A stretch of DNA of 55,811 nucleotides from Nitrospirota bacterium. Lineage in GTDB: Bacteria > Nitrospirota > Thermodesulfovibrionia > UBA6902. Each line of letters begins with the position of its first letter. The stretch's first letter is position 1. Made by a program: the position numbers and the translations under genes. The notes under the pieces were generated by a model. It was not told the DNA's origin and did no database searches. It saw nothing but the letters and a program-made list of their open reading frames with translations. Shown here one piece after another: positions 50,229 through 55,811 of the stretch. Location of the stretch: the NCBI GenBank assembly GCA_016222905.1, contig JACRPZ010000012.1, positions 1-55,811 on the forward strand, given 5' to 3'.

Positions 50229-50750
50229 TCAGGTACTCTTTTTAAAAGTAACAATATGCGGAAGGTTCCTGAATTTATTTTCATAGTCAAGACCATATCC
50301 TACAACATACTTGTCTGGTATTTCAAAACCTATATAATCAAGAGGAACGTCAACTTTTCTCCGCTCTTTCTTATTAAGCAAGGCGCATATTTTCAGGGAA
50401 GCTGGAGATCTTTTAAGAAGCATATTCCTGATATGACTAAGCGAAAGTCCTGTATCGGCAATGTCTTCTATCAGAAGGACGTGTCTGCCCTTGATATCTT
50501 CCCTCAGGTCAGCATGGATTTCAATCTTGCCCTTGTTTTTTGTTTTGATATAGCTTGATACAATGAGGAAATCTATATTCATAGGGACCTGAATGGATTT
50601 GACAATATCAGAAAAGAACATAAAGGAGCCTCTCAGGATTCCGACTGTCAGAAGCTCTTTGCCTTTATAGTCTCTGGATATCTCCGCGGCGAGTTCTTTC
50701 ACCTTTTCCTGAATCTGTTCGACAGTAAGAAGCGGTTTGCCGATTACCAT
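50229..50750 (-). CDS. hpt: Hypoxanthine phosphoribosyltransferase
   Basis: This 173-residue type I phosphoribosyltransferase converts hypoxanthine (or guanine) and PRPP to IMP (or GMP). The PRPP loop is VLLIEDIADTGLSL. LTVGILRGSFMFFSDIV and the FEIPDKYVVGYGLDYE C-terminal segment are characteristic. The ATG follows GGAGGG. It complements apt in purine salvage. Confidence 0.93.
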   Translation of the reverse strand: MVIGKPLLTVEQIQEKVKELAAEISRDYKGKELLTVGILRGSFMFFSDIVKSIQVPMNIDFLIVSSYIKTKNKGKIEIHADLREDIKGRHVLLIEDIADTGLSLSHIRNMLLKRSPASLKICALLNKKERRKVDVPLDYIGFEIPDKYVVGYGLDYENKFRNLPHIVTFKKST

Positions 50751-50842
50751 GTGACCCTCCGAATGTGAGCGTATTTATATAGTGGATATTATACACTGTT
50801 TAAGGAGTACATTTCACAAGCCGCTTTAATTTAAAATGCAGA

Positions 50843-50923
50843 TTATCTCATCTTGGGGTGGCATCTTTTGCAGCCTACGCCGTCAGTCCCACTATCAGCA
50901 AGCTTATAACCGCAGCCAATTTG
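50843..50923 (-). pseudogene. In-frame continuation of the cytochrome beyond TAG, with a seventh CxxCH
   Basis: After the TAG the same frame codes for 26 residues before TAA (50845-50843), containing GCKRCHPKMR. This fits a lost C-terminal haem segment of the cytochrome. It could be a nonsense mutation, read-through, or a sequencing error. Confidence 0.55.
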
Positions 50924-51718
50924 CTAATTAACATTTTTCACATGACATTCCTGACAATCCAGATCGGAGAATGATACCTTACCGTGACATGCCCCGCAGT
51001 ATTTGCCGGCAAATATGTCCTGCATGGTATATTTTGTTGTTCCCCTTTTGACTCCGAATATATCAGGATGACAGAGTTCGCAGCCGTTCCAGATAGCATG
51101 TTTTTTGTGAGAAAAAATAATATCAGGCATCCCCGTTATGTTGGATTTAATTTCGGTATCAGCCGAATAATTTAATGCCTTGGTCTTTATTGATATCCCT
51201 TCAAGGTAATCCTTCAGCTTAATAAGCCCTGCCTCTTCCGTTTTAATCCAGTTTATCTTGTCGCCAAACCTTGACATTGGAAATCCTTTTGTGAATTTGT
51301 AGAAGTCTTTCTCAAATGCAACCTTTTGGCCGTATGAGTGGCAGCGCTCGCAGTTCTTCCTGGCCGCAACGCCCGGGACTCCTTTCTCCTCTATGGCAAA
51401 TGCCTCTTTTCCGTTATGACATGCCCCGCAGTACAGGCCGTTGTTATTATCATCCATTGTTGCTTTGGTGCCGCCTGCCTCCATTGCAAACCCTATATCC
51501 ACATGACAGAGCCTGCACGTATACAGCGCCCTGTGAAGCCAGTGGTTATAAACTACCGGCGCCATCTTGTTCTTTTCAGCTAAATTATTCATTACAACAT
51601 TGCCGTATTCATGCCGCGGCGGTTTCTTCTTCCTTACTCCGGCCGGCTGGGCAAATGTCAAGGCTGCAATGCAAAGAACCACAAGAATGACAGTCAGAAA
51701 AATATCTCTTTTTTTCAT
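50924..51718 (-). CDS. Secreted multihaem c-type cytochrome (six CxxCH)
   Basis: This 264-residue protein has a signal peptide (about 1-23, ending TFAQ) and six haem-binding motifs: CRLCH, CGACH, CERCH, CELCH, CGACH and CQECH. Single histidines are available as second ligands (for example VYNHWLH, FSHKKH). The pattern of two similar halves (SHKKH/NHWLH then CxxCH, a TxxTM segment, and CGACH) suggests internal duplication. The likely role is periplasmic electron transfer. The frame stops at TAG (50926-50924), but continues in frame to 50843 with a seventh CxxCH (CKRCH); see findings. The ATG overlaps the upstream gene's stop by four bases. Confidence 0.85.
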   Translation of the reverse strand: MKKRDIFLTVILVVLCIAALTFAQPAGVRKKKPPRHEYGNVVMNNLAEKNKMAPVVYNHWLHRALYTCRLCHVDIGFAMEAGGTKATMDDNNNGLYCGACHNGKEAFAIEEKGVPGVAARKNCERCHSYGQKVAFEKDFYKFTKGFPMSRFGDKINWIKTEEAGLIKLKDYLEGISIKTKALNYSADTEIKSNITGMPDIIFSHKKHAIWNGCELCHPDIFGVKRGTTKYTMQDIFAGKYCGACHGKVSFSDLDCQECHVKNVN

Positions 51719-55200: not shown

Positions 55201-55811
55201 AGGCTCCCGTCCGTATTCAGCCGAGCTATGCGGTTACGGGTCGTTCCGCCTATTGTTGTGAAACCTCCTCCTATGAGTATCTTTCCGTCGCCCTGCACTG
55301 CTATAGCATAGACAGCGTTATTGGCATTGGGATTAAACCCATCATCCTCCATTATCGTAGCGGTATGAACCGTGGTTGTGCCGGGCGCTGCGTTTGTGGG
55401 CGTGCCCATTGTCAATATAACGGTCTCGCTGCCTTCTGCTAATGTGTCGTTTATTATGGTTATTGTTGCTGTGCCTGTTGTACTGCCTGCCGGTATGGTT
55501 ATCGGACTTGCGGTTATTGTGTAGTCTGTTCCGTCTGTTGCTGTGCCTGTCACTGCAAACGGTACAGTAACAGCAAACGCCGAAGCTCCTGAGAGCTGCG
55601 CAGTCACTGTCATGGTTCCGCTCTCGTATACGCTTGCCTGGCTTGCGGATGTCCACTGCACTGCGGGGGCAGCATCATCATCCGTTATCGTTGCTGTATG
55701 CACTGTAGTTGCGCCGAGGGTTGCATAGGTGGGTGTGCCCATTGTAAGGATTACGGACTCGTCGCCTTCATATAATGTGTCAGCCGTTATTGTTATCGTT
55801 GCCGTGCCTGT
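52266..55811 (-). CDS. Very large secreted-type protein with Calx-beta, delta-60 and DUF4214 domains (partial)
   Basis: The frame is open to the window edge, so at least 1181 residues are present and the N-terminus is missing. In order: Calx-beta units (GTATITI-type, DYTITASPITIPAG), seven delta-60 repeats of about 49 residues (for example GDGKILIGGGFTTIGGTTRN), a fibronectin-like linker, three further Calx-beta units, and a C-terminal DUF4214 block (YETFLGRTPSQSEVDYWAGEL). Calx-beta domains bind calcium, and delta-60 repeats form beta-propeller-like surfaces. It is likely a surface adhesin. The DUF4214 end is shared with the MCO-like protein at 44424. The internal ATG at 55742 is not the true start. 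Confidence 0.8.
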   Translation of the reverse strand, partial: TGTATITITADTLYEGDESVILTMGTPTYATLGATTVHTATITDDDAAPAVQWTSASQASVYESGTMTVTAQLSGASAFAVTVPFAVTGTATDGTDYTITASPITIPAGSTTGTATITIINDTLAEGSETVILTMGTPTNAAPGTTTVHTATIMEDDGFNPNANNAVYAIAVQGDGKILIGGGFTTIGGTTRNRIARLNTDGSLDTSFNPNANSGIWSIAVQGDGKILIGGGFTTIGGTTRNRIARLNANGSLDTSFNPNANSNVNAIAVQTDGKILIGGDFTNVGGTARNYIARLNATGGLDTSFNPNADSWVYSIALQADGMILIGGQFTTIGGTARNYIARLNATGGLDTLFDPDADSWVYSIALQADGMILVGGQFTSIGAIPVNCIARLNTDGSVDTSFDPIADSDVYSIAVRADGMILLGGQFTSIDWETRNYIALLNADGSLDTSFNNPVPNGSVLSVALQADGKILVGGAFTNISGTARNYMARFANTEAALQTLTSAEDGSSLTWMRSGTSPEIERVAFEKSDDMSIWTSLGSGTRISEGWQLTGLSLPLNQIFYIRALGYSSDGISTSLMEFVQIFNIGGSLPSVQWTSSGQSSANESGTMTVTAQLSEASGLTVTVPFTVTGTATNGTDYTITASPITIPAGSTTGTATITITNDTAVEVNETVILTMGTPTNVTLGSTTVHTATITDDDGPPTVQFQSASSSGSEAITPAAIAVTLSSASGNTVTVNYATADGTATADSDYTAVSGTLTFNPGDMSKTINVPIINDTAVEGNENFTVTLSSPSNATIGTPATHTYTINDNDSYGSIQLSSATYSVTENIGTVTIIATRSGGSSGAVGISYETSDETAEAGFDYTSASGTLSWADGDSSNKTFTVDIINDTLLEVDETFTVTLSSPTGGASSGSPVSTTVTITDEDVLIMDLVTWYYESILNRLPEPGGAEGWTAEIQRIDALGIDIKEGFIALGKLFFNSAEYINMNTTDDEYITDLYETFLGRTPSQSEVDYWAGELSGGLTRNLLMNYFIFSQEFMQYMTDYFGDTSVRPEYNLVNDLFRGFLSRLPDDGGFNYWLAQMQTAQCNGNAQEIRDLILQMALLFLNSQEYANRNTSNSEYIEDLYNGILRRGAELSGYLFWLEQLNNGTYTRETLLTAFVNSTEFQTRVQQVIDAGCAY
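52269..53026 (-). repeat. DUF4214 module, shared with 45463-46220
   Basis: This stretch encodes about 250 residues closely related to the C-terminus of the MCO-like protein 3. Both end in a short tail with AGC followed by two residues. Confidence 0.8.
53690..55680 (-). repeat. Duplicated Calx-beta block flanking the delta-60 array
   Basis: The segments 53690-54030 and 55340-55680 are closely similar in DNA and encode the same type of Calx-beta unit (DYTITASPITIPAG). A third copy begins at about 55670 and runs off the window. The delta-60 repeats (54310-55340) lie between the first two copies. Confidence 0.75.

Follow-up and report, generated by a model that had tools for sequence, protein, structure and literature searches.

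Cytochrome A and its neighbours

The window, the whole stretch of 55,811 nucleotides analysed here (contig JACRPZ010000012.1 of the Nitrospirota bacterium assembly GCA_016222905.1), carries on its minus strand a gene for a hexahaem cytochrome, hereafter cytochrome A. The ORF encodes 264 aa from ATG to TAG (50926-50924) and contains six CxxCH motifs (CRLCH, CGACH, CERCH, CELCH, CGACH and CQECH). Profile searches assigned the protein to the c7-type triheme family, with scores far above the curated cut-offs for both TIGR04257 (121.4 bits in two stretches, cutoff 40) and PF14522 (97.7 bits, cutoff 24.8), and with three CxxCH in each domain. It showed no departure from the family beyond the presence of two domains in one predicted secreted protein, separated by a linker of approximately 60 residues. 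Structures have been solved for multidomain c7-type cytochromes akin to cytochrome A of Geobacter (PDB 3ov0, 3oue, 3ouq and 1rwj). The sequence match to 3ov0 (E 7.5e-35) extended across the repeated triheme domains; 3ov0 was matched in four stretches, whereas cytochrome A has two such domains. The N-terminus and the haem motifs suggest that cytochrome A is exported, and its role is presumably that of a periplasmic electron carrier, as in relatives.

The gene upstream of A encodes a small secreted-looking protein of 112 aa that matched nothing in Pfam or NCBIfam. Its homologues were found beside A, or beside A and the second hexahaem cytochrome (cytochrome B) described below, in at least 15 of the fetched loci, being located downstream of A or of the A-B pair in most relatives that have it, in contrast to its upstream position in the window. 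The next gene downstream of A, for hypoxanthine phosphoribosyltransferase, is outside the cytochrome set; a tblastn search of the fetched loci at E 1e-5 matched only the window's own locus.

Past the TAG, the frame of cytochrome A continues for 26 codons, QIGCGYKLADSGTDGVGCKRCHPKMR, which include a CKRCH motif and are followed by TAA (50845-50843). The original prediction had described six motifs and a seventh in frame beyond the stop, and re-reading of the sequence agreed with it in the motifs and in their coordinates. It had also stated that a CxxCH is unlikely to arise by chance in so short a stretch, and indeed, when the mononucleotides of the tail were shuffled 20,000 times, a CxxCH arose within 26 codons in only 8 cases. 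Six-frame translation of the whole window yielded 12 CxxCH in 111,618 codons, seven of which were the six motifs of cytochrome A and the motif of the tail.

Table 1. Positions of the genes and putative remnants at the cytochrome A locus
Feature	Position	Strand and frame	Basis
Small secreted-looking protein, 112 aa	51715..52053	minus	overlaps start of A by 4 nt
Cytochrome A, intact hexahaem c7-type, two triheme domains	50924..51718	minus	ORF; TIGR04257/PF14522; 65 distinct relatives with the same end
Putative 5' remnant of B: ATG 50934, MLISKLAAVISLLIVGLTA, then TAG	50875..50934	minus, +1 frame	signal-peptide-like; overlaps end of A by 11 nt
Inferred deletion junction (approximate)	50872..50877	minus	81 nt versus 723-948 nt from A-stop to B-stop in 49 relatives
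Putative 3' remnant of B: CKRCHPKMR and TAA ("seventh haem motif")	50843..50872	minus, frame of A	B-terminus profile score; weak B HMM match
Hypoxanthine phosphoribosyltransferase gene, next downstream	50229..50750	minus	TIGR01203, 209 bits

The stop of cytochrome A in its relatives

Homologues were collected by a scan of genome contigs (66 loci from 90 stretches) and by searches of 61, 37 and 395 genomes, of which 18, 13 and 50, respectively, gave a match at the thresholds used; the sets share members, and only the best matches contributed loci. The resulting 118 loci were reduced to A-type proteins with the C-terminus present and collapsed by their last 120 residues, giving 66 distinct proteins including that of the window. 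The closest relatives were 65% identical to cytochrome A, and none belonged to the same genus among the genomes searched. Six motifs were present in 65 of the 66 proteins and four in the remaining one, presumably L087, which is cut by its contig end.

All 66 proteins stopped 2-10 residues past the last motif, the window's own at 5. When the next 26 in-frame codons were inspected, a CxxCH was found in none of the 65 relatives, leaving the window alone in carrying one. As every relative stops at about the same place, the TAG appears to be the ancestral end of A, and this comparison of sequences indicates that it is the normal stop of an intact gene. Homologues ending there with no extra motif were the outcome that the original prediction had itself named as speaking against it, and its suggestion that the TAG is read through found no support, the extension being absent from the relatives. 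The segment could also be regarded as A's own former C-terminus, with a seventh haem once present and the TAG arising by a recent nonsense mutation. This reading accounts for a real CxxCH in the same frame, but is extremely improbable given the uniform end of the relatives and the poor fit of the tail to the ends of A proteins described below.

Cytochrome B and the terminal motif of the tail

Cytochrome B is the next gene after A, with the same orientation, in 49 of the 65 relatives, the two stops lying no more than 1000 nt apart, and the tail in the window occupies this very position and strand. The distance from the stop of A to the stop of B was 723-948 nt in these relatives (median 782), the minimum coming from L001, whose B is cut by a contig end, compared with 81 nt in the window. 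Plausible starts of B were located from about -38 to +120 nt relative to the stop of A. The 16 relatives without an adjacent same-strand B comprised three with less than 350 nt of sequence left, two with a second A followed by B, and eleven having no B at that place. Among these eleven, two carried B on the opposite strand, where a third had a partial B. When the downstream DNA of ten B-less A loci was searched with the B HMM for remnants, no same-strand match was detected up to E 5; the opposite-strand genes were recovered in full in L079 and L082 and in part in L089. Two further arrangements were observed, namely tandem hexahaem cytochrome genes in the order B-A-A-B (L014:4212-7662), and a 19-CxxCH cytochrome gene directly upstream of A in three loci (L006:4419-5894, L009:4241-5722 and L016:1364-2947).

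The proteins encoded by B end with a motif and a few residues. The two B proteins of L014 terminate in CKRCHPKMRG and CKRCHPKMRM, and others in CKRCHPDMK or CSRCHPGMK, which differ from ends of A proteins such as CQRCHTKPVY. A terminal profile of B was built from 45 termini (46 B and one additional row, with L068 and the contig-cut L001 omitted), and equal columns were compared. The CKRCHPKMR of the tail scored 14.67 bits over five columns and 16.26 bits over six, whereas its score on the A terminal profile was -1.95 bits. The leave-one-out median of the B rows was 12.18 bits, and 12 of the 45 rows reached or exceeded the five-column score of the tail. None of the 50 A tails or the 481 internal motifs attained that score, and among 200,000 random draws just 1 did. 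The terminal motif and the residues after it thus fit the C-termini of B, not those of A, and on these scores both A and internal motifs were rejected as the source of the tail. The full-length B HMM gave a weak match to the tail (E 0.043, 8.7 bits). Among the searched downstream stretches that lack B, it was the sole same-strand match with E below 1. The likeness to B begins at the first cysteine, as the preceding GTDGVG is unlike the FPxND usual in B.

Since the seventh motif fits the end of B and B follows A in relatives, the tail would not be the C-terminus of cytochrome A. The original prediction was therefore right that the segment is non-random and contains a real former cytochrome C-terminus, but assigned it to the wrong cytochrome. 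That the motif arose by chance in non-coding DNA, as the shortness of the segment might suggest, is very improbable; the rarity of such a motif in the shuffles and the flanking residues whose profile scores fit the terminus of B, combined with where B lies in relatives, contradict it.

A candidate for the other end of B was also present. An ATG lies at offset -11 of the stop of A, within the range of B starts in relatives, and the ORF beginning there is a signal-peptide-like stretch of 19 codons. Only 1 of 5000 shuffled 91-mers of the window gave an ATG-initiated ORF of at least 18 aa that was as hydrophobic. Its likeness to B consists in hydrophobicity and place and extends to no further alignment, signal peptides being poorly conserved. 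Past the signal peptide, the +1 frame reads AAKDA, and one B (L011) has the comparable GAKDA at identical residue numbers. The bases of AAKDA are those of CKRC in frame 0, so that this likeness, chosen after looking, is tied to the CKRC codons.

The first 16 or so codons of the in-frame tail are this same signal-peptide-like stretch read out of frame. This argues against read-through of the TAG to give a minor form of A with a seventh haem, a reading that the open frame of 26 codons allows but that is exceedingly unlikely, all the more as the window alone among the 66 homologues has the extension.

Probable decay of cytochrome B beside A

Taken from these sequence comparisons, the segment is very probably the scar of a neighbouring B gene whose middle was deleted, the TAG being normal and the process ordinary gene decay. 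B would ancestrally have begun at or across the stop of A, as in relatives, and an internal deletion, presumably a single event, would have taken the part from just past the signal peptide to the last haem motif. Between the kept ends, about 650-870 nt were probably lost. The 5' part would have stayed in the +1 frame, with CKRCHPKMR and its TAA, the 3' part, in the frame of A, so that the two ends are no longer joined; that the end codons of B share the frame of A would be a one-in-three coincidence mimicking a read-through tail. The scar would yield no B protein, with a presumed loss of function. A short direct repeat at the junction shared by B genes was not supported, as the longest common word was 5-7 nt in 13 B genes.

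Several points weigh against the scar reading. The pieces left of B are short, at 19 codons and the 9 codons of the terminus; the residues before CKRCH do not match B, and the B HMM match is weak; the eleven relatives with A and no adjacent same-strand B include ten that were scanned and have no comparable scar; and the genomes searched are all of other genera, the best relatives being 65% identical, so that the intact arrangement is seen only at some distance. It is extremely doubtful that the scar is still productive, either by occasional suppression of the TAG adding a seventh haem to A or by a frameshift past the +1-frame signal peptide giving a tiny exported haem peptide ending in CKRCHPKMR, and nothing found pointed to either.

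The genome contains an intact B on another contig, C19 (L068 = L099:8768-9607 = G000:C19:17767-18606), with five CxxCH and a CGASGCH (CxxxxCH) where the second CxxCH is expected. The end of C19 (G000:C19:24797-24860) shares an exact 64-nt overlap with the plus end of the window (55748-55811, reverse complement), from which the two contigs are probably neighbours; this would place the L068 B on the strand of A, approximately 10 kb upstream of it. They would adjoin inside a long repeat-rich gene with Calx-beta-like repeats, and as similar repeats recur elsewhere in both contigs, this adjacency is likely rather than certain. In the tree, the L068 B grouped with the B of L077 and that of L085 (98/87), and the window's A fell outside the clade holding their A genes, with bootstrap unsettled. 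On this placement, the L068 B is unlikely to be the direct partner of the window's A, moved to another site.

An assembly error, in which the organism has a whole B and only the contig lacks the middle of the gene, is unlikely. The assembly comprises 90 contigs and includes the related L068 copy, but positions 50760-50960 match only themselves within the genome, and the L068 B ends otherwise (CKGCHPGISEIPQ), so that collapsing the two copies would leave the tail unexplained.

Gene remnants of operon partners occur in bacteria as pseudogene scars, and the putative scar of B resembles them in that the ends are kept, the middle is lost and the frames are unjoined. It differs from the usual scars in that its terminal haem codons are in frame with the upstream gene, which makes it resemble a read-through tail. 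The main text of PMC12977616 contains none of the terms pseudogene, stop codon, truncat, heme gain, hemes lost or C-terminal.

In Nitrospirota and several further phyla, the putatively secreted hexahaem cytochromes A and B form a conserved pair, to which the small uncharacterised protein is often added, and a number of lineages lack B next to A. An in-frame motif past a stop, though well above chance, can be the relic of a decayed partner gene rather than a sign of read-through. If the scar reading is true, there would be no unusual decoding or haem number to explain.
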